64,000 nt of DNA from Pegea sp. RAD2-039 (lineage: Eukaryota; Chordata; Thaliacea; Salpida; Salpidae), in the NCBI GenBank assembly GCA_034620365.1, contig JAQGEQ010000084.1:2356001-2420000 (forward strand), given 5' to 3'. Below, piece by piece: positions 3,701 through 61,109 of the stretch. The notes below the pieces were generated by a model, which was not told where the DNA came from, did no database searches, and saw nothing but the letters and a program-made list of their open reading frames with translations. How positions within the stretch are numbered: position 1 is the first letter of the stretch; every line of letters begins with the position of its first letter. The translations under genes were made by a program, and so were the position numbers.

Positions 3701-5445
3701 AAGGGTCATGGGTGGCTTTACCAACTACGAAAACGTGATAACTGACTCATGACGTCATCAGTGACGTCACATGCTTCTTGTGCAGGCTTTTCTCACTGAG
3801 AGCTACTTGGAGCAACATCCAGAGGATGAGAGCAAGATCTTGGAGTTGAAGGAACTAATTGCGTCACAAGTTCGAGACTTCTTTCTTCTGATCTTTCTAC
3901 TAACATTCGTTTCTAGATTCCTCTTCTTGAAGAAGGAGTCCGCATCCATGGAGAACGTGTCTCTGCCGCTCTCAAACCTCTGCACGAGAACATGATGACG
4001 TCATTCAGCGAATTGAAAGCCTACGTGGTGCAAAAGTACGGATCTAAAGTAAGTGACCCACACTGCTGGCCACGGGGACTGACCCACACTGCTGGCCACG
4101 GGGACTGGCTCACACTGCTGGCAACGGGGACTGACCCACACTGCTGGCAACGGGGACTGACCCACAATGCTAGCCAAGGGGACTGATCCACACTACTGGC
4201 CACGGGGACTGACCCACACTACTGGCCACGTGGACTGACCCACACTGCTGGCCAAGGGGACTGACCCACACTACTGGCCACGGGGACTGACTCACACTGC
4301 TGGCCACGGGGACTGACCCACACTACTGGCCACGGTGACTGACTCACACTGCTGGCCACGGGGACTGACTCACACTGCTGGCCAAGGGGACTGACTCACA
4401 CTGCTGGCCACGGGGACTGACTCACACTGCTGGCCACGTGGACTGACTCACACTGCTGGCCACGGGGACTGACTCACACTGCTGGCCACGTGGACTGACC
4501 CACACCGCTGGCCACGTGGACTGACCCACACTGCTGGCCACGGGGACTGACCCACACTATTTTTCAGCCCGCATTTCTCTCGGGACGAAATGTACATTTG
4601 ATACCTCCAATGATTCGAAAACTATCAACGAAACCTCGTCCGGAGTCCATCTTATCAATCGCTTCGAACATCTCATACACAGGAGACTCGTAAGATCTTC
4701 AACATCTTCATCAACATCATCAAAACTCCTCATCATTAGGGCTCCACCCCCGGAGATCCCAATTAAGCGTCCCAACTCGAGAACTCCGAGCTTGAATCGA
4801 TCTCAATCAATTATCTCACAAACATCAACATCCAGCGCTGATCCTCCTTCGATCAAATCAAACCGGAGGAGCAAACCAAGTGATTGGTTCAACACCAACT
4901 TCGGTGGCTCTACAAACTCACTTGAAAAAACTGGAAGTGTCATCGAATTGAAGGAAGAGGTTTGAATGTTGTAAGTCACGTGTAAAGATGACGTCATCGA
5001 TGACGTTTTTCAGCTGACACCAGCAAGACGTCCTCGACCAAAAAGTAGAACAAATCTTTCCACTACCGATATCTTACCACAAAGTAAGAATCTCATTTGT
5101 CTTCATCACTTCTTGATGATCTCATATATTCAGGATTCAACCCTTTTACTTCAAACAAGAAACCTCCCGCACTCCCTATGAAAGCGCAAAGTGACTACAG
5201 TAACCTGCCGAGTGATGAGGAAGTCCTTCGACGACACGAAGCTTCCTCACCTGCTCCTATTCCCGCCGGCAAACGGGTCAGTACCTCTCTCATCACCTCA
5301 CTATCTTCTCACCACCATATTTTTGTTCTTCATCAACTTTTATTTTGATCCACATCTTCTTCAGCCTCCACCACCGCTTCCAGTAAAGCGCCAGGAACCA
5401 CCGACGCCTCCCAAGAAGCCTATTCGACCCCCTAAAAGTCCCTGA
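764..5445 (+). CDS. DOCK-A family Rac guanine nucleotide exchange factor (DOCK1/2/5, CED-5), 3' part
   Basis: Twenty-three exons encode the last 897 residues: 764-862, 913-1007, 1277-1355, 1408-1505, 1553-1617, 1671-1819, 1874-1959, 2012-2168, 2217-2348, 2400-2603, 2790-2894, 2960-3101, 3154-3235, 3284-3368, 3420-3506, 3558-3734, 3786-3869, 3917-4048, 4568-4689, 4740-4959, 5014-5083, 5134-5276, 5365-5445. All join in frame. Family blocks include [15 protein letters not shown] (exon 6), [18 protein letters not shown] and [10 protein letters not shown] (start of the DHR-2 exchange domain), [13 protein letters not shown], and the nucleotide-sensor region [15 protein letters not shown]. The N-terminal SH3 and DHR-1 domains lie off the left edge. 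After DHR-2 comes a Ser/Thr/basic tail ending in PPPPLPVKR and PPTPPKKP, typical Crk/CED-2 SH3 ligands. DOCK-A proteins with ELMO activate Rac in engulfment, migration and myoblast fusion. The MMQCE block favours DOCK1/2/5 over DOCK3/4. Most introns are 45-60 bp. Confidence 0.95.
1018..1256. repeat. 19-bp minisatellite carrying 13 CACGTG E-boxes
   Basis: Thirteen copies of a unit close to GAACCACGTGACTGGCATC (19 bp) fill almost the whole intron 1008-1276 of the DOCK gene. Every copy keeps the palindrome CACGTG, while the spacer varies (GCCGTC, GGCATC, GGCGTC, ACCTC). The unit is more GC-rich than the surrounding intron sequence. Open frames across it are a by-product of the repeat. Confidence 0.95.
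2611..2786. repeat. 22-23-bp minisatellite in a DOCK intron
   Basis: About seven copies of TTAACCATTCACTACTGGTGT(T) lie between the donor after 2603 and the acceptor at 2789. The last copy has decayed (AACAATCTTAATTTGGTGTTTTAG) and supplies the polypyrimidine tract and the AG used for splicing. Confidence 0.95.
4055..4557. repeat. 26-bp minisatellite in a DOCK intron
   Basis: About nineteen copies of a 26-bp GC-rich unit (GACCCACACTGCTGGCCACG plus GGGACT) fill the intron between exons ending at 4048 and starting at 4568. Point variants include CACGTG, CAAGGG and GACTCA versions. Variant types are clustered, with GACTCA units mainly in 4320-4490, which suggests local duplication. The unit has no similarity to the other three arrays of this gene. 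Confidence 0.96.
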
Positions 5446-10419: not shown

Positions 10420-13400
10420 TTAGGAAATATTAATATTCATTAATTTTGGAGTAATTTTTCGCCATTTCAAATATATTTGCTGAGCAACCAGAACAGAAGA
10501 TTCTATGAAAAAGAAATTCAGCAAAAAGATTTTTTGTAAAATAAAACAAACCTTTAAGAACCGTTGAATAATTTGTATATCTCTTATTCACAAAAACTTT
10601 TTCAATTTTTGTAAAAACTTCAGAATCAAACTTTTTTTGATGAAAATCTTCATTATTTTTCAGGGCTTTCAATAAATAGAAGTTAAACAATTCCCACCTA
10701 GGCCTAAAATCAGAGTTACAGTTTATGAATGCTATAAATAGTCTTTTGAAACGAACTTATAGTAATATAGCATCAACGAAGACCACTGCTTATCAGCATA
10801 ATCAAGAATTTCTCCATCAAGCCCCCATAATGTAATTTGTAGTTTTGCATTTAGTTCATATAAATCAGCTTCCTAATCACATTTTAATGAGTATTTTAGA
10901 GAATTTTCAATTTTTGTGGTATAAAAACGTTCTTTATATTTCCTAGTTACTCTTAAATTTAAAGCAATTTTGCTGAAAATATTTGAATAATTCGGAAATA
11001 GATTCTTCAATTCAATTGGAAGTTATTTTCAACCAATTAAAACTATTGACAGAAACGTCAAGTGTAGAAATTCACCTTTTGATTAGTTGCTAACTTTTTT
11101 GCACTTTCTATCCATTTTTCAAGCATAAAATGCTCGTTAGTTGCCAATATTCTATCCATGTCAACAAACAGACTTGACATTAATCCACTAAATTTCCGGA
11201 CAAGATCAACTGAATACTTTTTCTTCAACTCAAAAGCCTAAAAATTGAAATCTATTTTTGACTATTTTCAAACGGTACTTAAATGTGACTCAATTTTTTT
11301 TGATCATTACAAGTAATAGCTTCACTGACGTCTAATTTCCTATTGATATCGTAATCGAAACGAAATGCTTCTTAGTTTAGCATACCATCGACTATTTTTA
11401 GATATTCAAATATAAATAGCAATCAGTCACCTGTATAATATTGTAATAAAGCAACCGATGAAGGTCTTGTAGCATTTGTCTCGTAACATCAACGGCATCG
11501 TACTGTGTAGTTTCAATATCAGGCAAATGGGGTAGAGATTTGATAAATTTGTCCCATGCTTCAACTTGACTTCAAATCAATAATAGTTTGAATCAACCAG
11601 CGAGTAATTTGATGAAATACCTGCTCATATTATACCAGGTCGGAAAGCCAACTATTTTAACAGAAGGTCTTTTAACAATTGGACCTCGTAGTAGAACTTT
11701 ACTGGAAGGTTTTCCTTCTTCTTTATCATTAAAAACTGTTTGAGAAAATAACTTCCAACTTTGAATAGCATCAGAGTTATTCACTCCATATCTGTAAGAT
11801 AATTCCAAACAAATTTTTAGGACTGATTACATTCGAGTAGAAACCTTCTTTCCACAAAATCTTCAATCCATTTATTCGTATCAACAGATGTCATCGAGTA
11901 ACCAACTTCACTAAACAACTCATAAACGAAATAATTCTGGTTGATACCTTCGGGTGTCAACCCAATTCCAACCATTGAAGAATTCTTAAAGTTGAAAGCT
12001 TCTATGGGACCCTGGACAAGTTAAACTGAACACGTCGATCACGTGACCATCTGACAACTGACTTTATTTAATTGGTCGAGTTTTCCGTAAAATCCCAAAT
12101 TTCCGCCAAAGTTGTTCAACATACACCAAATAAATGGCTGGCCATAAAAGGATTTAGTTGTTTTATAAACCGGATATGACTCAGCAAATAAATCCAAAAC
12201 TATTATTTTACCCTGAGTAATATCAACAAGTTTTCTGCTGAGTAATAACAAGTAATTGAAGATTACTTGAGGAACAGCTGTCAGTAAGGCTCGGATTTGC
12301 TCATCTTTCCAAAAGTTTGATGAATGGTAGAACATCCACCCTTGCATCAACCTATAAGACTTCAGAATTGGTGAAAGATATAAATTTTCAATAATTTACC
12401 AGTAAGATTCGGGGTCAGCAGCAGTGATGGCCCTGTACACAGCTTTACTTGTACTTGCTAAATAACTTGGATCTGAAGAAGAAGGAATCATTTCATTAAA
12501 GACATCTGTGTTATAAATATGATTGGTTCCATTATATTCTCTTATTTGTTCTTCGATAAAAAGTTTTCCAATTTTTCTGTTGAAATTTTCAAAATATTTA
12601 TTTAATTTTTAAGTGGTTACAAATTTAACCTGAATAAAGGATCATTTGGATCAAGAAGAAGAGTACATGAAAAGGAGCAGTTGAATTTGGACCAAGGGCT
12701 CAAACTTTGATAAGTTGCCTTTTAAAAAAAGAAATAATTGAAAAATATTGAAGAGATGAAACTTGCTGAATTACATTTGGAAACAATTTAGCCAAGCCCA
12801 CAGGAACATGACCAGCAAAAGCTGGAAGAACGGGAATCATTCCTAAAGATCTCATACGAGAAATGATTTTGTGTTGAAGATTTAACTGCTGAATCTTCCA
12901 AGATGCAGGGAGCGGTCCTCCAAGTTTTTTTAGATTTCCCATTCTACCCCTAAAACACAAACTAATCAGAACTTACAGATAACAATGCCATGTAACTAAC
13001 CATGCCAAATATGCTGGTCCAGTAAAATGCTCATCCATATCCTCATCAGTACATCCAAGAGATTTATAAACTCGATCCCAAATTGCTTCTTGGCCAGTAA
13101 AAGCAAGAGGCAAGTTAAAACCGTTTAAAGCCATCCAATCAATCTCTTTTTCCCATCTGGACACATTTTGTTATTGTCTTTTACCCCTCGTCAACCTACC
13201 ACCTTTCCCAACTCCACCACACATATGAGTAACTTGATACACAAACATTTTGATAATACCGAAGCTTTGACTTTACCTCAAATCTCATCTTTGCTTTAGG
13301 CAGAGGACTCGGTATTTTCCCCACATTACTACCTGCCCATGAAATATGTTTCCTGAAATAGGAGTATTCATCTGAGCGTGGGATAAAATAATCATTTTAG

Positions 13401-15251: not shown

Positions 15252-17114
15252 TTAGTCAGTGTCTTCATTGTCAGAAAATACTGAAGACCTGTCACTAGAT
15301 GACGCACTACTAAACTCACTTGAATCACTTTTATTGTCTGATACAGAATCTTTCAAATGATATTTGGGCATACAAAGCTTGGTACCAGCATGAAAGTCTC
15401 CATTCAAGTTGTGTTCAGGAGACCCGTGTAGAATGTGGTCCACTGCTTCCACGCCCTGGATGAATCCTTCATCCACTTTGCTAATTCTTTGACTGAAAGC
15501 CCCAAAACGTCCTCTACTCAACACATCTTTCGATTTCAGCCAATCAAGAGTCTCCTTTAACTATGAGACGCGTGTGATGAGAAATCTGACCCTAGAGGGC
15601 ACTCTCACTTACTTTCTTCTCGAGATCAAGAGCAGGGAGTGGACAGCTCATATTCTTCTGGATTAAATGCATTGATACAATTTCATCGCTCTCTTTTAAC
15701 AGCTTGATAGTGCACGCGTCTTTTATCACATCTTCCACTAAATTGAAGTCATAATGAGTCACATTACTAGATGATATTTAGGACTCACCAATTGTGTGCT
15801 TGTTGACATTTTTTAGCGGTCCATGAGTAACTTCTAGCATAACTGACCAGTACGGACCACATTGCTGACCATCTTCATCAACCTTACCTTGTGAACCAGC
15901 AACACGGATCGTAGAAAGAGTTTTGGAAGCTTTTGGGACACTAGTAGAGTCAAAAGATGAGATAAAGCACGCTCGATGAAAGATTACATTTGCTTCCGGG
16001 AAGTAGATACATCCTACAAAATATTAGTGATGACGTTATCATCGCCTTTAAACACGATCTTGACCTGTGATCTTCGGATGAGGATTGGAACCTCGAATTC
16101 CAAGACAAATGACAAAAGTTGTTGAACTCTCGAAGCTGTTGTCTTCTCGATTTGCTAATCTTAAGAGGGATGTGAATGGGATCGTACTGATCAGATGCTC
16201 ATATCTGAAGATGAAGATGACGTCATGATATGAAATCTAGAAGACTAGCTGGGACCTGATCTCTGTTCCATTCTTAGTTGTAATCTTTTTATTTTGGAGA
16301 TCAATTTGTTGAACTTTTGTATTGAAATGAACTCTTTCTGTTTGAAGACTTCGAACAACTCGACTCCAAAGATCTCCGATCCCATCTTGCTTCGGATACC
16401 TCACAGTACTCTCTGTGTTGTCAGTCCCTTCATCATCACTTGATCGGTTGCTTAGCAACTGATCCATCATCTTAACGACATCAGTATTAGGAATCTTTTG
16501 AGTTATCCACTCATGGCTCATCTTTTCAGTGGGAAATGCTCTCGATTTGTAAATATAAGGTCGAAAAAACAGATTACTTAAATTTTCTCCCCATTCTGAT
16601 ACTAAATAGTCGTTTAAGCTTTTCGCCACTAGTTTCTCGTTGCTGTGTAACTTTTTGAGACGAGCTACTGCTAAATCTGAAGCACAATCCACTTTTTGAG
16701 GATTAGGTAGAGATGACAAATGATTCTGAATTGGGTAGGGGACTAATTGGTCCTGACAGAGAACAGCGCTGATAACTTTGATGTTCTCGAAAATTTCATG
16801 CCCAGTTCGCCGCTCCAGTGACTCAAGAAGTTTATCAAAGTATTCATAGCGACTTTTCAGTGCCTGGTAACTGTGGTCAAAGCGAAAACCTTCGGGCGTA
16901 GTTGCTGATCCATAAAAACCACCTGGGGCTTCGTCTGCATCTAGAAGCAACCAATCATCTGAATCGTATTGCTGAAGTCTATCAAACAGAAATGACATCA
17001 TCAAAAGTCATGATTAATCTATCTTTACCTGTAAGCTGCCCCTAGACCTGCTGGGCCAGCTCCTATAACGACCACTTTGGTTTTTACCTCACCCCCGCTA
17101 AGTGAGCTCCCCAT
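15252..17114 (-). CDS. UDP-galactopyranose mutase homologue with divergent active site
   Basis: Six minus-strand exons give 535 residues: 17029-17114, 16256-16978, 16065-16204, 15789-16013, 15613-15737, 15252-15560. The FAD-binding GAGPAGLGAAYR (residues 18-29) is followed by the eukaryotic UGM order: DADEAPGG, TTPEGFRFD, LVPYPIQNHLSSLP, NLFFRPYIYKSRAFPTEKM, RYPKQDGIGDLW, CLGIRG, CGPYWSVMLEV, SRGRFG, GVEAVD. UGM interconverts UDP-galactopyranose and UDP-galactofuranose. However, the family's flavin-facing GGH is SYQ here (residues 65-67), the RWKYEVGNQDHS-type block after GRFG is AFSQRISKVDEG, and the YHRRFDHGYP-type block is MHLIQKNMSCP. The two Arg positions (FRPY, GIRG) are kept. A 31-residue acidic, Ser-rich tail is added at the C-terminus. 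The N-terminus MGSSLS fits N-myristoylation. It is either a pseudoenzyme or has altered activity; the fold assignment is firm, the reaction is not. Confidence 0.9.
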
Positions 17115-20900: not shown

Positions 20901-23405
20901 CCTTAAGATTTTATTTGAAGGTCTTTCAAACGCTAAATCTTGATCCAGTTTATCTTAACGTTGATTCACTAGACATGCACGCGGTAAGTGACGTCATCGA
21001 TACTTAATGCTCACTACCAGCTAATTGTAATGTTTTGTCAGGGAAAGCGAACTTTTCATCGTTTTGATAGATTCAACAACTTATACAATCCCGTAGGAGC
21101 AACTGAGCTCCGAGAAATCTTTCTTAAGTCTCACAATTACATCAATGGACAGTATTTTGCTGAAATTCTTCAGGTGAATTTTATTTGGATGAAATGAAGT
21201 GTATACGTTGATGCTGCGTCTTAATGGATGATTTCATTTACAAGATATAAAAATCATAATCTTCTGATTCGGCAGATGTTAAAAAAACTTCCTTTTTTGG
21301 GCTTTTCGCTCAAATATTGAAAACAAAACAACCAGAATTTTTTTTGTTGATTTAGCTTTATCAATCTTTTTGATATTCAAAATTTAAGTTAATTGTAAAG
21401 TTTTTGGCAGAAAATAAACGAAAACCTGGTAGAACAAAAATATCATTATCTTGAATTACGAATATCAATTTACGGAAAGAATAGGGATGAATGGTACAAT
21501 TTGGCAAATTGGTTCAAAATAAATAAGTTGCAAGGCTCGCATATTCGCTGGCTGATTCAAATACCTCGCTTGTAGTGAGTTGAAACTGTTACTTGTCAAT
21601 GAATTCAGTTCTTTTCTCCTACAGTGACGTCTACAAAGAAAAGGGGGTCGTTGATAATTTTCAGGAGATTCTTGGCAATATTTTTGTACCGTTATTTCAG
21701 GCAACACTGTTTCCAAATAAAAATAAAGAAATATTTTCTTTTCTCAAGTAAAAATATAAACAAAAAATTAATTTGAAAAGTGACCATTTTTTCATTATAG
21801 ATACGTCTTAGGCTTTGACAGCGTTGATGATGAATCGAAAGCAGATATAAGTTTCTTTAAAAAAAGTACCCCGAGTCCTGATGAGTGGACGAGACCAGCA
21901 AACCCGCCCTATACCTACTACCTTTTTTACATGTTTTCAAACATTGCGCGATTAAACCATTTAAGAAAGCAAGTTTTTTGTGGATAAATGTATCTACAAC
22001 ATAAGCTGTTGTACAACAAGATTTAAATGATCAATAAGAGCATGTTTAGTAATGCGTGACCTGTTTGTGTTTTAGGGAAAACTGATGAATCATTTTATTT
22101 TTTAGTGCTCGAGGAATGAATACATTTACTCTGAGGCCCCATTGTGGAGAAGCTGGTCATCATGATCATCTTCTTACAGCATTCCTTTTAGCAGAGAATA
22201 TATCTCATGGATTGTTGTTGAAAAAAGTTCACTTTCAATTTATTATTTTTATTTTTTTCATAATACTTTTCATAGCAATTAAACCGTTTAAATTTAGCCT
22301 TTCATTATAATGCCCATAAGTTTAAAACATCAATTGATCTGTTTTTAGATGATCAACCATCTTATTAGTTACACATTTTTGAAAACTTATATTTATGATT
22401 TTTTGTTGCTTATTGTAAAATAATTAGAATAAAACTTTATAAAGTATTTGAATAATATTAAATTTCTTGTATTGATTGAATCCTTGTTTTAATTTCTGTT
22501 TAAAATTGAAGTTTTTTTTCTACTATTTCAAGTTCCACTTAAAAATTTTGAACTAATCAATAAGATCTTCTTCAAACTTTCTACTTGAACTAAATCAAGT
22601 CAAGTTTTAAATCCTCTTAAGTTCAACAAGAACAATGAAAACTATAAATTAAAAAAACACTTTCCTATTTGACAAATTTCTTTTCAATTTCGTTTTTACC
22701 ATCACTCAGATCCCGGCACTTCACTACCTCTACTTCCTCGCACAAATTGGCATCTGTATGTCTCCGTTAAGCAACAATCGTCTTTTTTTGGAATACAACA
22801 AAAACCCTTTTCCAGAATACTTTTACCAGGGCATGAATGTCAACCTGTCCACTGATGACCCAATGCAGTTTCATTTCACAACTGAACCTTTGATAGAAGA
22901 ATATGCAGTTGCTGCCCAGGTCAGGTAGCTTATGGTTATTAAAATGGTCCAAATTGACGAGAAGTATTCTACAGGTTTGGAAGTTGTCTGTTTGTGACAT
23001 GTGTGAAATCTGCCGTAATAGTGTCCTGGTCAGCGGCTTTCCACATTCAGATAAGCAAAAATGGCTTGGAGAGAATTACAGGTTTAAATAGTTCTTTAAA
23101 AGATAACTCGAATTTTGATTGGTAAACTTTCAATAATTTCTGATGGATCATTTAATACTTCTTAATAATCAGTTGATATTTGTGATTTATTTGAGATGAT
23201 AATTTCGATAATTTATTTTTCTGTAAAAGTCGAAAAACTTTTAGTCTTTTAAAAATTGATAAATAAAATAATTTGCAGATCTGATACTTATGATGATGAT
23301 CAACTCAGCAAAACTAATGTTTCTAAAATAAGAATCATTTATCGGCAAGAAACACTTGATAAAGAATTTGAGTTTTTGCTCAGCTTTTTACTCGAAACAA
23401 ATTAA
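17930..23405 (+). CDS. AMPD: AMP deaminase
   Basis: Seventeen exons give 745 residues: 17930-17978, 18232-18329, 18912-19081, 19392-19521, 20078-20222, 20291-20450, 20503-20641, 20699-20830, 20921-20983, 21042-21173, 21411-21574, 21625-21747, 21801-21968, 22106-22226, 22710-22919, 22975-23081, 23279-23405. AMPD deaminates AMP to IMP in the cytosol (purine nucleotide cycle). Catalytic-core motifs are intact: [11 protein letters not shown] (zinc-binding HxH), [104 protein letters not shown]. The first 200 residues are variable, charged and Ser-rich, as in other AMPDs. The start MGSACTKR suits N-myristoylation plus palmitoylation at Cys5, unusual for this enzyme. Intron 21969-22105 must begin with GC (AA|GCAAGT) to keep phase. 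Exon 3 has a TAGCAG tandem acceptor that could add one Gln. An AATAAA follows at 23632-23637. Confidence 0.96.
19570..19594. repeat. CCTA microsatellite in an AMPD intron
   Basis: Six tetranucleotide steps (CCTACCTACCTACCTATCTACC) in the intron after exon 4. The following 250 bases are less AT-rich than the rest of the intron but show no recognisable coding sequence. They may be an old insertion. Confidence 0.8.
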
Positions 23406-26400: not shown

Positions 26401-27853
26401 GTAATACACATTCGATAATAGATAAATAGCAAACGTCAAATATATTGGTACTAACTTAGGAATGACAAGTTAATTGGTACCCAAATGTTAAAAGTTTGAT
26501 TTTTATTTTGAACTCACTAAAAGCTTTACATTTTATTATTAATAATCATAAAAATGTTTTCATTTAAAATATCCAAAACCCAACTTTAACATGAAACTTG
26601 TATTAAATCCAAAGAACCTAAAAATAGAGAAAATTGGATTGTTTGCATCAAAACATTATTTTATATTTGAAATAATTTAAATTTTGTAGAAGCTTGTTCT
26701 AGTTTGTGATAGTTTTTGCTTTTGATAAAAAACTATTTTAAGGTAAAAAAATTTACATCAAAACAATAAATTAAAATTAGCGCTAAAGTTTTGAAAAGTG
26801 TTACAAAATCGAAATATTATTTTTCAAAAAGTTTTTATAGTTTATTTTTGACTTAAAAGTTATTAATTTGTAAAAGCCACTCATTAATGATTTCACATAA
26901 TTAGTATAATTTACTGGTTTTTTGTCAAATTACATAACATAACAATTTTCAGTAATTTGACATTTCTAACTTGAAATTATTTTTCATGTTTTTATTCCGT
27001 GTAATGACGTCAGCTGGTGACATCAGAAAGTGCAATCTTTATTAGAATTTTAAATATAGTCATAATTTGAAGTTTAAGTTCCTCAAATTGTTTCTTAAAA
27101 ACTCAAAAATTGTTGAAAACGTTTTCGTAATGATAAGTAGTCGAATTAAAACTTGTATTTTGCTTGTTTTGAGTGATTAACATTTTTTTAATCTTCTGCT
27201 TTCTATAAAACTTTCAAAATCCATTTTTTAAGTTAAATTCGTATTTTGTTGAAACTAATAATTCAAGAATTGTTATCTCTTACCACTGCTAGTTTGATGC
27301 AATCAATTTTACGTAAATTTTTATCGCATTAATGTATTTTGAAATAATATAATTAAATAGAAACCATTTGTCATCTTCAGCTTCTTTTGCTTCAATCTTA
27401 AATGTATTCCAATAGTTCTATTTTTATTGAACTGTATTTAAAGGAAAGTCATTCCTAAGAAATCAACTGATAACTGCAACAGATAGGTGACGGAATTTCA
27501 ATCTTACAATCATTCAAGTGATGTATTTTTAACCTATGAAGATTTGTTAAAATAAATAAATATATTTTTAGATTGATGAGTAGAAGCTAAAACTAAATAT
27601 AGTTCAATAGGCGACATGCATAAATATAATTTCATCTGTAAAATCTCGGCGGCTTCTTTGATAGTAAGATAGAAGTTTATAAAAACATTTGAAGAGTCGC
27701 CACCCCGACTTGATATTATCATTTTGATTCCTATCTTAAAACTTTCACAGATATTTTCATTCTTTCTGCTTTCGATCTTTAAATTTTTCAATAAAATATG
27801 AAAACATGTGTAGTGGGTGGCTAAAAGATCCAATTCTTGAGAGCTGTCAGATC
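23406..27853. other. AT-rich intergenic region downstream of AMPD
   Basis: AMPD 3' UTR with AATAAA at 23632-23637, then about 4 kb of A/T-rich sequence with poly-A/T runs. A TGACGTCA lies at 27005-27012 and a short perfect hairpin (ATGCC-TAC-GGCAT) sits near 25848. No convincing exon or RNA gene was found. A 99-codon minus frame at 27534-27833 has no family resemblance. Confidence 0.5.
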
Positions 27854-28130
27854 GAATAGAGATAACTACAAGCTGAATAGAGATAATTACAAACTGAATA
27901 GAGATAACTACAGACTGAATAGAGATAACTACAAACTGAATAGAGATAACTACAAACTGAATAGAGATAAGTACAAACTGAATAGAGATAACTACAAACT
28001 GAATAGAGATAACTACAAACTGAATAGAGATAAGTACAAACTGAATAGAGATAATTACAAACTGAATGGAGATAATTACAAACTGAATAGAGATAACTAC
28101 AAACTGAATAGAGATAAGTACAAACTGAAT
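27854..28130. repeat. 21-bp minisatellite downstream of MEF2
   Basis: About 13 copies of a 21-bp unit (AATAGAGATAACTACAAACTG) with few variants (AACTAC/AATTAC/AAGTAC). Because 21 is a multiple of three, long open frames appear on both strands (repeats of RDNYKLN or CNYLYSV). Neither has a start context, splice partner or family match, so I read it as non-coding. Confidence 0.93.
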
Positions 28131-28909
28131 GACAACAAAAGTTTTTCAATCCAGAGTTTATTTGTTTGATTTGAATGACAGAAATGAGAAGCAACTATCA
28201 AATGGTGATTTAAGCTGTTTCAAACTTTCCTAGTCTGAATAAAATAAAACTGTGTAAAGAATGATGAAAATAGAAGAAGAAACAGGTTAACGCGAGACAC
28301 ATTTTGACCGCTAGCGAGTTATGGTGATACCACGTGGTGGCGATCGAACTTTTTACAAACCGTTTCATCAACACATCGAATCATGTAATTACAAGAACAA
28401 CAAAAAGCGAGAAGCAACAACGACAACAACAAGTGATTGGGTTGTAGCGGAGATAAAAACAAGAATTTTATTTGATATAAAATTTGATTATTTCGAATTA
28501 TTTACAAGAGATTAAAAAGAAACGAGAAGTTAAAGAGGTTTTCAACCGCCCGTCTGTCCAGCTAGTCACGATGGAATAGAAATGGTTTTTCGCAGAAGAC
28601 GCGCGCCCGATTCATTGATTATAGTCGAAAAGCAAACACAACGACCAAAAAAGGGAGTAGCGGGTAAGGGCAGGGCACGATTGAAAGGATACGACCACTG
28701 GGCCGCGGTCACATTATCTAAACTTAGGTCAAAGGTTGAAGCCCAGTTTTGAGCAAAACATATACAAAATTCTTCAAATTCATTGACTTCATCTCGTCTA
28801 TCGTCAGCGCGTTCCCATGACGACCACAGCTCGCGGCTTCAGATGACAGCGATGAAGCGCCCGAAGCCAGTGACGACCGTCGACGGCCACTCATCACGCC
28901 ATGACATCA
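28131..28909 (-). other. Probable MEF2 3' untranslated region
   Basis: Sequence after the MEF2 stop on the minus strand. From about 28300 to 28900 it is clearly more GC-rich than the flanking desert, which suits a transcribed 3' UTR. TTTATT (AATAAA on the minus strand) occurs near 28158. Small plus-strand open frames here overlap the UTR and look accidental. Confidence 0.5.
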
Positions 28910-41128: not shown

Positions 41129-44100
41129 TTAAAGATCATTCCATTCATCTTCACAGAATCCAGTGAAGACTGGTTCAGCTCTAATCCCGCGACTAAAAAC
41201 ATCAAATCAAATTTAGTTTGATCAAAAGTTGAAATTCAATAATGAAAAATGATTAAAACATAAAACTCGATATGACTTGGCAAGTAATAAGCGGATAGAA
41301 AATTTCATTGAAGACATCCTTATATCACTGCTTCAAAAAAAGCCAATTTGTCGCAAAATAGATGACAGTAGCAAATAGAAATAAAATGAAAATTTCCATC
41401 ACTTTACATAAGACATCTTACGAAATGTAAATGAACAATCTAGACTGACATAATGATAACTTACGTAAGTAACTTGCATCTTTCACTGTGCAATCTCGGG
41501 TAAGCTTGTTTTACGTCATTCACATCAACAGAGCTCCATAAACGCTCAGCTACTGCGAGAGCACGAGGCCTGAATAAAGTTGTTTATTGATTTCAAACAA
41601 TTTTCATATTTTCAATAATAATCTGTTTGTTTCATGAATGGGAAATAACCGCAGTTGAAATTTGTATTGCAACTAAAATCGATTGATATTTTTACAATGA
41701 AATATTGACTTAAAAATATTTAGGATAATAGCGACATCTAGTAAGCGGTTGAAAACGAGCTGAAACCCACCAGAGACGGGATTCTATATTGGTTGAGTCG
41801 ACATACTCTCCCCACATACACGCTTCGCCTCCAAGAACTAACTGCTTCTGTTGGTCTGTTCCTGAAAAGAAAGTTTCAAATGAAAATATAAAGTATCGAC
41901 GAACAACGAACCTTGAAAATCAAGAGGTTCATATGAATAATATCGCTGCCAGTCCTGACCATAGGAGATGAGGTTCAAGTACCATGGCTGTGTGACTATA
42001 ACCTTGTATCCCATCTTTGTAATTCGTGCCATTTCTAGTTGAACAATTCCCTTCCACACTTCAACTACAGTTTGGTTGTTAGCCTTCAAATATAATTTCT
42101 AATTTGTGATGGTTTCAAATGAGATGAAAAGTTGTTACTTTCACTCCGTTATCTATCACTTCTTGCCAGACAATATAATTCAAGTTGTAATGTTCATTTA
42201 TATCAATGACTTTTTGAATATACAATTCTTCTAGCTTCGAGTAGCTGCTTATGTTGTGATTCTTCATGAATTCAGTGATCTGAGGATTGGACTTCCTGGA
42301 AGTTATGAAAAGATAACATTCAAAAAAATACATCAGGAAGTTACCAGCAGGTGAAGTCAACTTCATCACCACCGAGATGAAGATAATTATCTGGAAACAC
42401 TTCATTTATTTCTCCCCAAAAACGTTTGATAAATTTGTAAACATCTGGGTTTGTTGGATCGATCGGACCAAACTTACCGTTTGGTTTGCCATCTGAAATA
42501 TTAGTTGATCAGAAAAATAGTGATTAAGATGAAGAACTAACTCGAGTAACAAGAGGTTAACAGCTCTGGTTTTGATTTCCCCCATGATTGAGTATGTCCT
42601 GGGGAGTCAAACTCAGGAATCACTCTAATTCCTCTCATCCGGGCAAACTCAATGATCTTCTTTACATCAGCAGGTGTATAGATGTGTGTTGATGGGTTGT
42701 AGGCTCCCTAGAAGGAACATATCTCTTTTTATTTTATTATAATTTTGTGGAAATATTTGAGAATTAAATTGAGGTAATTGTTTGAGTTTTAATTAATCAA
42801 TATAATGAAAGTGAAAAGAAACAGAAACACTGAAAGAATATCACAACACAAAGATCACTTCAAGGAATCAAAAAGTGGGTCAAAGGTGATCTTTCACTTA
42901 TATCAAACATTTTCAGTAACTTCTCTACTAGAATGGAGGTTTCACTTAAATTTAATAGATTTGTTGAGGAATTCCTACAGCCTGGGAGGCAATGGAGGCA
43001 ATTATCATTTATCAAACTGTTTTACCCCAACAGATATTGATTTAAAACTATTTAAAAAATTTGAAAACATTTTACGTAAGTCTTTAGTAGTGAATAAAGT
43101 TACAAATTATTTGAAATAACTTCAGTATAAGTAGAAGATCGAATGTTTTTGTATTATATTATGATTTTATTAAATTAAGAATGCTTGAACTGAATGCAAG
43201 TGGAATGATTTTGATAAACCTATAGTTAGATTTAAGCGTACTAACAATTAGTTTTCTAGAGGAAAGTAAAAAGAATAAAAGGTAACTTATTAATCATGTT
43301 GTCAGTAATGGCGAAGAAAAAATATCATGAGATCTTAATACATTTCACTAAGTATTAAAATAAAATATTTGATTAAAATAAAAATTCTGATTTACATAAT
43401 AATCCATTAAAAAACATAAAGTATAAGATTAGTTTGATTGTTAATTCAATTAAATGGTGTCTTAAAAATTTAATTTTTGAAACTTACTCAAGTTTAATAA
43501 ACTTATTTAACTTGAAACAATTAAGAAATAATCAAGACAAATTACAAGTCCTTAGAAATCAACAAAAGTGAACTTTGTGACCATAAAAATAGACTTTATT
43601 TGTTTATAATTCAAACTTTAACCACAATTTTATTCTCCTTCCTTTACAATAAACGTTTGAGAGTATAAGTTCTTTATAAAAATTATCTATATGTATATAA
43701 ACAATTTATATAATTTATAAATGATCATCTCTGAATGAAACTATTAAAATTTATGATTATTAATAAAAATAAAACATTAATAATCTTTTAACATTCATCT
43801 GAACAAAAATTATCTAAATCTTTGATTAGAATTTTTATAAGATTTCAAAATGAAAAACAAACTTAAACATATTCAATTTTAGAAATTTAATTTTTTTAAA
43901 ACTAAAATAAAAACCTTTAGATGTAGTTCAGGAAAGAGTTGACTAACAAAAGGAAATGAAGGACTATCAACTATATGCCAATGTAAGACATTGAACTTGC
44001 TGTAAGCCATAATTTCCTACAAAATTCCAATGTTAATATATCAGTAAGAAAATGAACTAATAAATAATTACCAAAGTCCTAAGGATTGTTTTAACTGGAA

Positions 44101-47936: not shown

Positions 47937-48612
47937 TTCTCCCCAACCAAATAATTGGGCCGAACAGTAAATATCGAACTTTGTCTCATTGTGGCCATCA
48001 AAGGCAATTAGTCTCAACCGTAGCACTTTGGAGGTATACACTTTAAATATAGAGGATATACTTTAAATGATATGTTGGACCGCCGAATCTACACGCCGCC
48101 GTTTCGCCCGCTTTTCGGGCTGACGTTACCACTCCTGGTACTCAAACCATCAAAGCTTGTCCTTTCGTCATTAGAAACCTGCACACTAGACTAACTCAAA
48201 CACCACTCTCGTATGAGTTCTAAGAAAGTCCCTTCTCAGCACTATCTCTACACCTAGGCCCTCTTTCATGACAAACAGATTTATACTTCTGTACTGTTTC
48301 TTTAACAGATGGAGGTTGACCTTGCAAAATCTATTTTTTTCTGAAAATCTTAGACGACTAGGTAATCTCTACTTTACATTTATTTCGAGTTTCGTAAATC
48401 TTGAAGTTCCGAGCAATCTTTTCCACTTACAAAGCTCTTCGAGGATCCGATATCAACAAGAGACATAAATAACTTGCCTGCAATAGATACATCGCTTCGT
48501 TCAATTGGTTGGAAAATTGAGTAAGCGCTACTTTAAACATTTGGCTAGTTATTGCAGATCTATCCATTCTTTGACTTTCTGACTGTTTCTTGGTAGACTT
48601 TTTCTGAAGATG

Positions 48613-48654
48613 ACATACTCGACTATAGTATCCCTTCTTCCCACATTTGAAACA
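48613..48654 (-). pseudogene. Zinc-knuckle relic of a gag-like protein
   Basis: Minus-strand translation gives CFKCGKKGYYSRVC, a CCHC knuckle (C-x2-C-x4-H-x4-C) in which the histidine is tyrosine. Basic residues follow (KKSTKKQ). The frame is broken on both sides. Confidence 0.6.
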
Positions 48655-49439
48655 TAAACTTGAACCAGCTCGGCTTCTTTTAAAATGATGAAGCTTGCTC
48701 CCTTCACAGTTTACTCAATCTCCTTTCATGGCCGCTACTGTTGGTTACACTTGATCGTCCTCCTTGAGTTTCATCGAATTCACTGCTTCTCTCACGCTCT
48801 AAAAACCTTTGTCTTATACCTGATGAAGTTAATCCATCTACAGATGAGTCCCTGATCTTCTGAGTCACTGATTATCTCTGTGTTCTGCTGCCATGACACT
48901 CTTAAAATGAAGGTTATTGTCTAGACGTACCAATGTTTACCAAAAGTCTTCTATAGACTAACTTGGCTTCTGTCTTTGTGTGCGTAACAGATGACGCAGA
49001 AAACATTCATTTGATTTCTTTATATACAACTGCTCCAGCGTTGCTTCAGCTTCTACATAAGCCTGACAGATCTCAAAGTACTAGTGCACCTCTGGAGCTA
49101 CAGAATTCACAAGCAAAGCTTTAAAAAAATTAACAGTTTAAGAAAATGGTAAAAGTTTTCTTCCAGTGACGCCACTCCATAGCTGCCGACAAATTATTTG
49201 GGTGTATGGATAGTTTTCCTGGTTTCAACAGCTGATCCTTTTCTCTCATTAAAAAACTCGGTTGCAGTAAAAAAACTGGACATACTTATTCGAATAGAAT
49301 CTTATTATATAATAAGGTATGCAAAAAGAAACTATTTTAACCGTTGCTAAGCTTTGACTACGCTAAGCTTCAACAACGCCACAAGAACTGGCAACAATTT
49401 GCCCAAGAAATAAATTACATTAATTTGAATAAATTGTAA

Positions 49440-57369: not shown

Positions 57370-60300
57370 TAGCCTGAGCTGTTTACAGTATTTTAGAACA
57401 AAATAATGGGATTTCAATGGTTTTGCAAATCTGTATACGCTGAATTGAAATTGGCAACGATGTTGCCAAAATCAACAAAAACATTGTTAGTTTGTCTAAA
57501 TCAATGGATAAACTGGATGCCTCTACAAAGAAACATGTCACATGAGCCTCGGTGGTCGGTGATTCCGATTCCGACAAAAGTTCTAGGATAGTGCAGCTTC
57601 TTGTCAAGAAGGTCACCGCCACGCACAAAAACTAACTGTGAACCGTGAAGACAGAGAAAACAATGTCATCCTAATGGCTGTGAGACTAATAAAGATGATG
57701 ACATTAAGGTTTTTAATTAATATGTTCTCTCAAAGCCTTGAGTTTGTGAACGTTCCAAAGGTATCAATGATCAGACTTGGAGCGAAAAGCTCATATCTGT
57801 GTGAAGATGATCGCTTAGAAAATAAGCGTCTTGTAAAAGAGGCGTATAACCGAAATCAAAAAGAGCAACCAACTGATTTCAAATACAAAGTTGGAGGTCC
57901 ACCATGAGCTTGAGAATTGTCAAAGTTATTTTTTTAAAAAAAAGAAAGTGGCAAATAATCACCGGACCCATATCTTCTTTTTTCAAAATCTCTCTGCACA
58001 AAATTGTGAATAACATCCTTCCAGCCCAAGATATCAATTTACAAAAGTCTTTCATCAAGTCTCACAAGCGTCAAAAAGACAATTCTTCTATTACATTAGC
58101 TATGTTCTTCAACGCGCGGTCGATTATTAATAAAGGTTGCCAATTTAAAGCTCTTTTGCATTCTTAAGATTTCACATTTGTTTTTATTACTGAAACTTGG
58201 TTGAAACCGTTTTATCCTGATTCTTTTCTGGTTGATTCTTTTTATGTTTTGCGTTGTGACGTTGTGTATGATAGAGGCGGCGGTGTTTGCGTAATTTACA
58301 AGACATCGCTTGCACCAAAGATCTCCAGAATTCAGATCGAAGCCATTAATTTTTCAAGATTTGAGATTATCGCTTTCGATTTTCTTTACTCATAGTCCAA
58401 TTTTTCTCAATTTATATGTACCTACCAACCTTTAAAATTAATGACGGGGTTACTGTTAAAGCCTTATTGAAAGTTTTGAAGAGTATTGTGTGTCATGAGT
58501 TGTATATTTTTGGGGGATTTTAATTTTAGTAAAATTGATTGGAATAACCCAAATTCAGCATTTATGGGAAAATCGTTTAACTTGGATAGCGATAATACTA
58601 ATTCACCCTTTCCAAGTCATGCCTTTGTAAGCTTCCTCAATGCCAATAATCTATCTCAGATGGTTACTTTTCCGACCCAAGTTAGTGGTAATACTTTGGA
58701 TCTTCTTATCACATCAAAACCTGAGAACATTATCTACGTTGAGCAAAAAGAACCTTTTGCTCTGACATACGATCACAACATGATTGAATTCAAGCTCCTT
58801 GAATCAAACTTTTTCCATGAACGTTAAGACTTCAAGCAAAAGTAGTTTTTATCGTGGAAATTATAATGATATAAGCAAGTTTCTATCAAGTGTTGACTGG
58901 ATTTCTGTTCTCAACTCTTCCGAAAACATCAGTACTATTTACTCAAGGTTTACTAACATCGTTAAAGATTCAATTGAGAAATTCATACCTTTTTATCGAG
59001 TCAGCAGAAAACCACATTTGCTCAAATATTTAAGGAATTTACAACATTAAAAAAACCTCGTTTACAAACAAACTAAAGCGGACCCTTCCATCAAATCTCT
59101 GTACAAAGATCTTTGTGTAGTTTACAAGAAATCTGTTTCTAATTTCTATTTAGGAAGTGAAAGTGCAATCTTATCTTCAACTAACAAGAATCACAATAAT
59201 CTCAAGTTTAGGGCGAGATCTCAAATACCTCCCTAATTTGACAACAGCGACCAGCTTGTGATGGAACCAGAGAATAAAGCTGAGTTGCTAACCAACCTAT
59301 TTAATAGCGTTTTCATAACCGACGATGGCAATACTTCTTCTCTCTCCTACTCCGACATCTTTACAAATGTCTCTGAAATAATCTATCTTGACATAACGGT
59401 CGATATAGTATCTAAGGCTCTTTCTTCTTTAAAATCATCACTTTCCAACACAGATCAGATCCCTGCTTTGGGTTTAAGAAAAACTACTTCCTCTTTATCA
59501 CTACTGTTTAACATCACTCTAAGGCGAGGAAAAGTTCCACAAATTTGGAAAAAAGCTATTATTACTCCAATTCATAAAAGGGTCCCAGAAACATTGCACT
59601 TAACTACAGACCAGTTTCGCTGACTTCAGTTATCTGCAGAACTCAAGAGTATATCATTCACAATCATATGACCAGTCATTTGATGGAACACCATCTAATA
59701 TCTGATGTCCAATATGGCTTTGTGAAACGGAGATCTTCCCTGACTCAACATCTCACGTTTCCTTAATGAGCTTACATATCCTCCTTGTGATATCATATAT
59801 CTCGATTTTGCTAAAGCGTTTGATTCTGTCCCACACACTAAGCTCATTACATTACTGTATTGAAAAAAATAAAAATCAACAGCTTTATCTTACAGTGGAT
59901 TGAAAATTACTTATCAGGTAGAACCCTATAAACTCGTGTAGAAAGATCTTTATCTACTCCTAGTCAAATCACTAGTGGTGCTCCTCAGGGTTCCGTTCTG
60001 GGTCTCCTTCTCTTTTTAATTTTCATTGAAGACCTAATCAGAAGACTAGTAGCAGTAGATGATGTCAGTGTGTTTGTATATGCAAATGACATTAAGGTAT
60101 TATCTTGCAATCCTTCAAAACTTCAAACTGCACTACACACTGAATAAAACTGGTCTATGAGCTGGCAGCTCAGAATCCAGCCTACGAAGTCTGAACTTAT
60201 ATTTTTCTTCCGTAAACCAGCTGCAAATTCCTTGAACCAATATTCCATCAATATATTTATTATTCAACGAATATCTTCGGTCCTAGACCTTTGCATTACT

Positions 60301-61109
60301 CTACCATCTGACTTTAAATGGCACAATTATGTTTCCAAAATTTTTGGAAAATTAGTCAACTTTATCTACCTCATTATAAAGACCGTTAATTCTAAGGATC
60401 CATACTTTTTTATCAATCTTTTCCGATTGTACGTACGTATAATTCTTGAATACAATGTCAGTGCATGGATGCCATATCAAGTTAGTGATATCAATAAAAT
60501 AAAATCTGTTCAGGCAACATTTACGATATTGGTATGCAGGAAACTTAATATTAAATACGATAGTTATAAACATCGTCTCATCTTCTTCAATTTAGATACT
60601 TTGGAAATTCGACGAATTAAATACGACTCAATTCTTATTTTTAAATTTATCCACAATTTAATTGACCTTTAATTTGATGATTTCTTTACCATTAGTCCTT
60701 TCCTCAGGTTATATCAACTCAGACGACACACATTACATCTTAATAAGCCCATATCACATGGTACATTAATCAAAGCGAATTTTTTTCTCATACCGCGCAA
60801 TTAGTACATGGAACCAGCTGCCATCAGACATTGTCATGTCAGAATCACTCGTGTTGTTCAAGCAGAAGTTGAACCATTATAATATTGCCAACACTGCCAT
60901 TTCTAAACTGTGATTTTTTTCACTTTTTTATATTATTAACATTCTATTGTTCACTGTTATATGCTTTGAGGGCTACTGAAATTCCATGTGTTACATCTTT
61001 TACTTTCTATATTTCTAGCTTAATAGAAGTTATTGGTGAGAATGTGTGTTAGCGAGAGGTGCTCTCTTCAGGTACCCTCCTTTGCATTTATTTTTTATTT
61101 TCAATAAAT
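57370..61109 (+). mobile_element. Inactive CR1/jockey-like LINE retrotransposon
   Basis: A nearly full set of LINE parts on the plus strand, broken by many stops and frameshifts. In order: ORF1-type coiled coil (NKNIVSLSKSMDKLDASTKKH) and NREDRENNVILM with a later RLG (57450-57900); AP-endonuclease (FNARSIINK, TETWLKPF, RGGGV, FLGDFNFSKIDW, YDHN; 58090-58830); reverse transcriptase (AIITPIHK, IYLDFAKAFDSVPHTK, GAPQGSVLG, VYANDIK; 59450-60110); and the C-terminal domain ending AISTWNQLPSDIV (to 60900). The catalytic YADD/FADD is YAND, so even an intact frame would be dead. It ends with GAGAATGTGTGTTAGCGAGAG and an AATAAA-type tail (61038-61109), shared with the solitary tail at 37797. Confidence 0.88.

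Follow-up and report, generated by a model that had tools for sequence, protein, structure and literature searches.

A gene of the eukaryotic UDP-galactopyranose mutase family with a changed active site: a candidate pseudoenzyme

The gene and its surroundings

The window considered here, the whole stretch of 64,000 nucleotides that was analysed, carries on its minus strand (17114-15252) a gene related to UDP-galactopyranose mutase (UGM), the six exons of which are spliced to give an intact, stop-free protein of 535 amino acids. The uninterrupted frame of 535 residues and the coordinates given in the initial annotation are therefore correct, with the gene on the minus strand. An in-frame TAA begins 9 nt upstream of the ATG. 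The five introns are each 50-52 nt long and each run from GT to AG: intron 1 (16979..17028, 50 nt), intron 2 (16205..16255, 51 nt), intron 3 (16014..16064, 51 nt), intron 4 (15738..15788, 51 nt) and intron 5 (15561..15612, 52 nt), all on the minus strand.

Exon 1 (17029..17114, minus strand, as are all the exons) holds the start codon, the N-terminus MGSSLSGGE, which we take to fit the N-myristoylation consensus (G2...S6), and the dinucleotide-binding motif GAGPAGLGAA. Exon 2 (16256..16978) encodes PGGF, the tripeptide SYQ instead of GGH (residues 65-67) and the retained uracil-site residues Y110, Q113 and F166, along with replacements, relative to the UGM of A. fumigatus (AfUGM), of N163 by I171, W167 by R175, R182 by K190 and N207 by D215. 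Exon 3 (16065..16204) is a segment ending at GIRGSNPHPKIT, whilst exon 4 (15789..16013) encodes C-IYFPE, in which W315 is deleted and Y317 kept, the retained R327 (R330) and GPYWSVMLEV. MSCPLP stands for HGYPTP in exon 5 (15613..15737), with Y419 replaced by C423; exon 6 (15252..15560) keeps SRGRFG (including R447), has FSQRISKVD for WRYEVGNQD, keeps GVEAVD and then passes into a Ser/Asp-rich tail (residues 489-535), which has a pLDDT below 50 in an AlphaFold model. From the exon lengths, SYQ, MSCP and FSQRISKVD are all internal to exons 2, 5 and 6, away from the splice junctions. None of the peptides GGHV, YEV[GS]NQD, GYPTP, YNFKVWA, WGPN and SHY.YFD occurs in any frame of the window, so that no alternative gene model there would bring back the canonical motifs; such a model was ruled out.

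Intron 2 also contains the palindrome TGACGTCA, which has 19 copies in the window against 0.47 expected (for example at 16218-16225, 3750-3769 and 20989-20996), many of them, by eye, within short introns and close to the 3' splice site. Among the introns of the UGM-like gene, intron 2 has an exact copy, 13 nt from its splice site; the best copies in introns 1, 3 and 4, lying 14, 17 and 6 nt from theirs, respectively, each carry a single mismatch, and intron 5 is without a copy. A further locus, L091, tankyrase-like by eye and picked because it holds several sites, has 18 copies of the palindrome in 6.1 kb, and the longer form TGATGACGTCATCA occurs at 1972 sites in the 105.7-Mb genome as against none for the reversed pattern. 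An intron-borne element and a splicing signal are the candidate readings.

Elsewhere in the window, Pfam matches were obtained to a DHR-2 (DOCK) exon, NAGLU, AMP deaminase, GH20 and a nucleobase permease, a set that makes an animal the probable host. Searches for COX1, a rotifer spliced-leader sequence and nematode SL1 gave no match, with SL1 detected in no control genome either, and do not decide the matter. Two glycosidase genes lie near the UGM-like gene: a NAGLU gene at about 11430-13396 (minus strand; Pfam match at 12042-12395, the remainder by eye) and a GH20 hexosaminidase gene at 41713-42707 (minus strand; Pfam match at 41713-41919, the remainder by eye). G+C-rich tandem repeats at 1002-1281 and 4004-4621, in or beside the DOCK-like gene, translate as repeated VTWFD or SPWPAVWV, and a simple tandem array at 27534-28194 reads through without stops in several frames of both strands and is a source of false ORFs. 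A zinc-knuckle-like stretch at 48430-48714 (minus strand) is gag-like by eye and without a Pfam match; a region at about 58480-60672 (plus strand) is LINE-like by eye, and 59932-60144 matches the reverse transcriptase family PF00078.

Family membership and predicted fold

The protein was matched by phmmer to AfUGM over residues 10-490 (313 bits, E = 2.5e-92; 36.7% identity) and to the UGM of T. cruzi (TcUGM) with 218 bits. Pfam returned only general domains of the dinucleotide-binding, pyridine-nucleotide and amine-oxidase types. The C-terminal domain of GLF (PF03275), the prokaryotic-type UGM, was not detected in the protein at E 0.001, and no GLF-family match was obtained in the genome, the same search being positive in 4 of 14 control genomes. 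No NCBIfam model reached its cut-off, the best being PRK07208 ('hypothetical protein') with 106 bits against a cut-off of 389.

The AlphaFold model has a mean pLDDT of 81.2 and a pTM of 0.82, although its likeness to UGM is partly built in, as the input alignment consisted of 27 UGM homologues; confidence is low from residue 489 on, and the mean pLDDT of the altered loop that faces the flavin (residues 451-460) is 60. When the model was compared with the PDB using Foldseek, the first 34 rows were all eukaryotic UGMs (TM by target 0.83-0.88, best E 6.3e-50), followed by a putative protoporphyrinogen oxidase (E 9.7e-22), and the neighbours also include monoamine oxidase. PRK07208 and protoporphyrinogen oxidase belong to the same FAD-binding superfamily, but the former falls short of its cut-off and the fold of the latter is more distant.

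The phmmer alignments, the predicted model and the Foldseek comparison together support the earlier proposal of UGM-type alignment along the length of the protein and of a UGM fold. In sequence, homology to eukaryote-type UGM extends along the protein. With the eukaryotic enzymes of known structure (AfUGM, PDB 3ukk and 3ute; TcUGM, 4dsg) it has in common the same predicted fold, the GxGxxG FAD-binding motif, the uracil-site residues Y104, F158 and Q107 (AfUGM numbering, used from here on for reference positions), Y317, R327, R447, SRGRFG and GVEAVD, whereas GGH, F66, N163, W167, R182, N207, Y419, Y453, N457 and Q458 are changed, W315 is deleted and the Ser/Asp-rich tail is added at the C-terminus. 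In a tree the protein adjoins AfUGM with support of 93/89, a placement that is unsafe given the long rows and an end branch of 10, which may be the program's limit.

A yardstick for conservation was obtained by scanning one genome per prokaryote species (84,980 species), which gave 156 confirmed relatives of eukaryote-type UGM; the best 80 of these (L009-L088), from Bacteroidota, Sumerlaeota, Verrucomicrobiota and others, were kept. The set is biased in two ways, in that the 80 retained were the best-scoring of the 156 and candidates had matched one of two peptide patterns, one spanning residues 66-73 and the other ending at Y104, so that conservation at the residues covered by the patterns (F66 and H68 among them) is partly built in. 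These prokaryotic homologues belong to the same family and can be aligned over most of the protein. The 80 by themselves give 137 positions with conservation of 95% or more, of which AfUGM keeps 121, TcUGM 128 and the UGM-like protein 73; when presence in both AfUGM and TcUGM is also required, 114 positions are left and the UGM-like protein keeps 66. All 80 homologues agree with AfUGM and TcUGM at GGH, N163, W167, R182, N207, W315 and Y419, and 79 do so at Y453 and N457, the remaining one having a gap; of these, GGH, R182, N207 and Y419 set the prokaryotic proteins apart from the UGM-like protein, which has none of them.

Residues lost and kept at the active site

In canonical UGM, according to the account in PMC3624792, N5 of the reduced FAD attacks the anomeric carbon of the sugar, and the histidine loop touches the reduced flavin and aids its stabilisation. 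This loop, G61-G62-H63 facing flavin N5, is S65-Y66-Q67 in the UGM-like protein. The alignments reproduce the three replacements on which the initial annotation had based its claim of lost active-site motifs, namely SYQ for the GGH found in AfUGM and in every homologue of the yardstick set, MSCP (421-424) for HGYP and FSQRISKVD (455-463) for WRYEVGNQD. That claim is borne out by alignments and contact counts, and the loss is wider than first noted: F66K, H68R, R91V, N163I, W167R, R182K, W315 deleted and Q458V are further changes, as is N207D, a substitution that is less sure because it depends on the alignment, its column lying beside a 3-residue insertion and a low-confidence stretch (211-215).

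The pattern of loss differs between the parts of the ligands. With the contacts taken as they are given in PMC3624792, three uracil-site residues are kept (Y104, F158 and Q107, as Y110, F166 and Q113) and F106 has become Ile112; for the diphosphate, Y317 (Y320) and R327 (R330) are kept, and R182, Y419 and Y453 are replaced by Lys, Cys and Gln. None of the galactose contacts R182, N207 and N457 is kept, and N163 and W167 have changed as well; overall, R182, N207, Y419, Y453 and N457, which serve Galp or the diphosphate, have become K, D, C, Q and K. Of the FAD contacts in the same source, D38 (D42), V242 and R447 (R451) are kept, and G62, H63, V64, Q458, L46, T18, S39, G456 and S461 are changed, T18, S39, G456 and S461 being variable in the reference proteins too. 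Counted over Table 3 of PMC3624792, the UGM-like protein keeps 5 of 13 substrate contacts, as compared to 13 in TcUGM and 11-13 in the 80 homologues, and 3 of 12 FAD contacts, as compared to 9 and 5-11, which is just somewhat under the range of the canonical homologues, since these themselves go down to 5. For the NADPH positions listed in PMC7662398, a list that prints Asn57 where our alignment shows Leu, the corresponding numbers are 3 of 8 for the UGM-like protein, 7 for TcUGM and 5-7 for the homologues; S93, Y104 and Y317 are kept and F66, H68 and R91 lost.

A reaction-centre set of 11 residues (G62, H63, V64, N163, W167, R182, N207, Y419, Y453, N457 and Q458), all within the 114 conserved positions but chosen after inspection of the data, has none kept (P = 3.5e-5). 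When no residues are picked by hand and the Table 3 contacts (PMC3624792) within the 114 are taken instead, 6 of 18 are kept as opposed to 60 of 96 elsewhere (two-sided P = 0.035). In these alignments the loss is concentrated at the active site, yet it is not confined there.

It is improbable that the protein is still a working UGM in which the changes are tolerated through compensating residues, although several observations point that way. R327, Y317, R447 and the three uracil-site residues are kept, and R327 was the most critical residue in the AfUGM mutant study, where R327A had no detectable activity and R182A retained 6e-6 (PMC3893270). In that report R182K, the change seen here, left 0.10 of the activity and H63N was partly active in vivo, and the H63A mutant of AfUGM forms a covalent FAD-galactose in PDB entry 5hhf. 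On the other side, R182A is nearly inactive and, as reported in PMC4192007, H62A in TcUGM lowers activity by 98%. On what is given in these sources, no single change is proof of inactivity, and this, together with the retention of R327 and R447, is an argument against a pseudoenzyme. However, a working mutase would have to accommodate the changes at GGH, N163, W167, R182, N207, W315, Y419, Y453 and N457 all at once, at positions that are all but invariant in the homologues. With the histidine loop, the galactose residues, two diphosphate tyrosines and the NADPH-docking residues all changed, it is very unlikely that the canonical UGM cycle runs in this protein.

A retained pseudoenzyme, decay or a new chemistry

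That the gene is a pseudogene, or in early decay, is likewise improbable. Consistent with decay are the 48 of 114 conserved positions that have changed, the very long branch in the tree, and the 123 moderately conserved sites, at which the UGM-like protein matches AfUGM in 37, whereas TcUGM matches AfUGM in 62; this last comparison also indicates that erosion is wider than the active site. Against it stand 535 intact codons and five GT-AG introns, with no disrupted frame or splice site found in the six-exon gene, and the behaviour of the most variable sites. Over 168 such sites the UGM-like protein is identical to TcUGM in 38 and to AfUGM in 48 (28.6%), the latter being not below the 39 (23.2%) shared by AfUGM and TcUGM, although the comparison is flattered if the host is an animal, AfUGM then being the nearer relative, as fungi are closer to animals than trypanosomes are; the median identity to the 80 homologues at the variable sites is 16.7%, as compared to 20.4% for AfUGM and 18.6% for TcUGM. 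The freest sites thus resemble those of a working enzyme in this comparison, whilst the conserved and moderately conserved ones are eroded. Long neutral decay would be expected to have erased the similarity at variable sites too and to have disrupted the reading frame; altered function under relaxed constraint is the better fit. Firmer ground is given by the intact spliced frame, and it is chiefly this, and less firmly the site rates, that supports the earlier statement that the gene is not a pseudogene.

The suggested search of the same genome for another, canonical UGM was run with three protein queries on the assembly of 105,744,746 bases (387 contigs), and none was found: the window protein gave 5 matches, AfUGM 2 and TcUGM 2, all of them pieces of this locus. 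Searches were run exon by exon with the best candidates scored, so that a UGM in very small exons could escape; as AfUGM and TcUGM detected even the divergent gene, a canonical UGM should have outscored it unless it is absent from the assembly or divided into very small exons. With no further UGM detected, it is probable that the organism has abandoned the making of UDP-galactofuranose by a UGM. No viral relatives of the window protein were found, and a viral search with the canonical alignment A2 gave two loci, both with GGH, WGPN and YEVSNQD.

A rather unlikely but more serious alternative is a flavoenzyme of changed chemistry, in which the protein would bind FAD together with a nucleotide substrate, UDP-linked or otherwise, and a rebuilt junction (SYQ, K70, K190, Q457, K461 and V462) would catalyse something else, such as an oxidation of the kind seen in the amine oxidase/protoporphyrinogen oxidase superfamily. 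In its favour, GxGxxG, D38 (D42), R447 (R451) and the three uracil-site residues are kept, and several lost positions are now bulky or charged, so that the pocket may have been remodelled and not emptied; the superfamily, moreover, covers many reactions and supplies the nearest structural neighbours outside UGM. However, neither GGH nor Q458, both in contact with the flavin, is preserved, F66, H68 and R91, which dock NADPH, have gone, and the profile libraries offer no more specific family than the general Pfam domains, with no NCBIfam model at its cut-off.

On balance we consider it somewhat probable that the product of the gene is a pseudoenzyme descended from UGM, which would act in binding or as a scaffold without catalysis. 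We lean to this reading because the residues around flavin N5 and its ring, around Galp and at the NADPH dock are hit together, whilst three uracil-site residues and several on the ADP half stay. The choice left by the initial annotation, between a pseudoenzyme and an enzyme of changed specificity, is therefore narrowed towards the former as the more probable of the two. As a pseudoenzyme the protein would fold like UGM. To judge from the residues retained, which could grip the outer ends of two dinucleotide-like ligands, a uridine nucleotide may still be bound, and perhaps FAD or ADP in a structural role; the N5-flavin-sugar cycle could not run, and the ancestral UGM gene would have been retained for a new role as a non-catalytic binding or scaffold protein.

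As mammals have no UGM, the enzyme is under study as a drug target in fungi and parasites; a gene of the UGM family is readily read as a sign of galactofuranose. Galactofuranose itself is reported in PMC7278926 from C. elegans, sponges and starfish, which makes the presence of a UGM in an animal unremarkable in itself; what is strange is a sole UGM-family gene without its reaction centre. Among the matches listed from the open-access literature, judged by title and the opening of the abstract, there was no description of a UGM-family pseudoenzyme. A fuller picture, which we put forward tentatively, is of an animal non-mutase of the eukaryotic UGM family in which the body of UGM and the outer parts of both ligand sites persist, the chemistry where these sites join is gone, and the protein works as a regulator responsive to UDP-sugars or dinucleotides in a lineage without galactofuranose synthesis. 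If true, this would be a pseudoenzyme derived from a flavoenzyme in which the loss of the junction and the retention of the outer ends of the ligands are directly legible, and a natural test of which UGM residues are needed for folding and which for catalysis. As the sole UGM-family gene of a genome may have a destroyed reaction centre, the annotation of galactofuranose from such genes can mislead.
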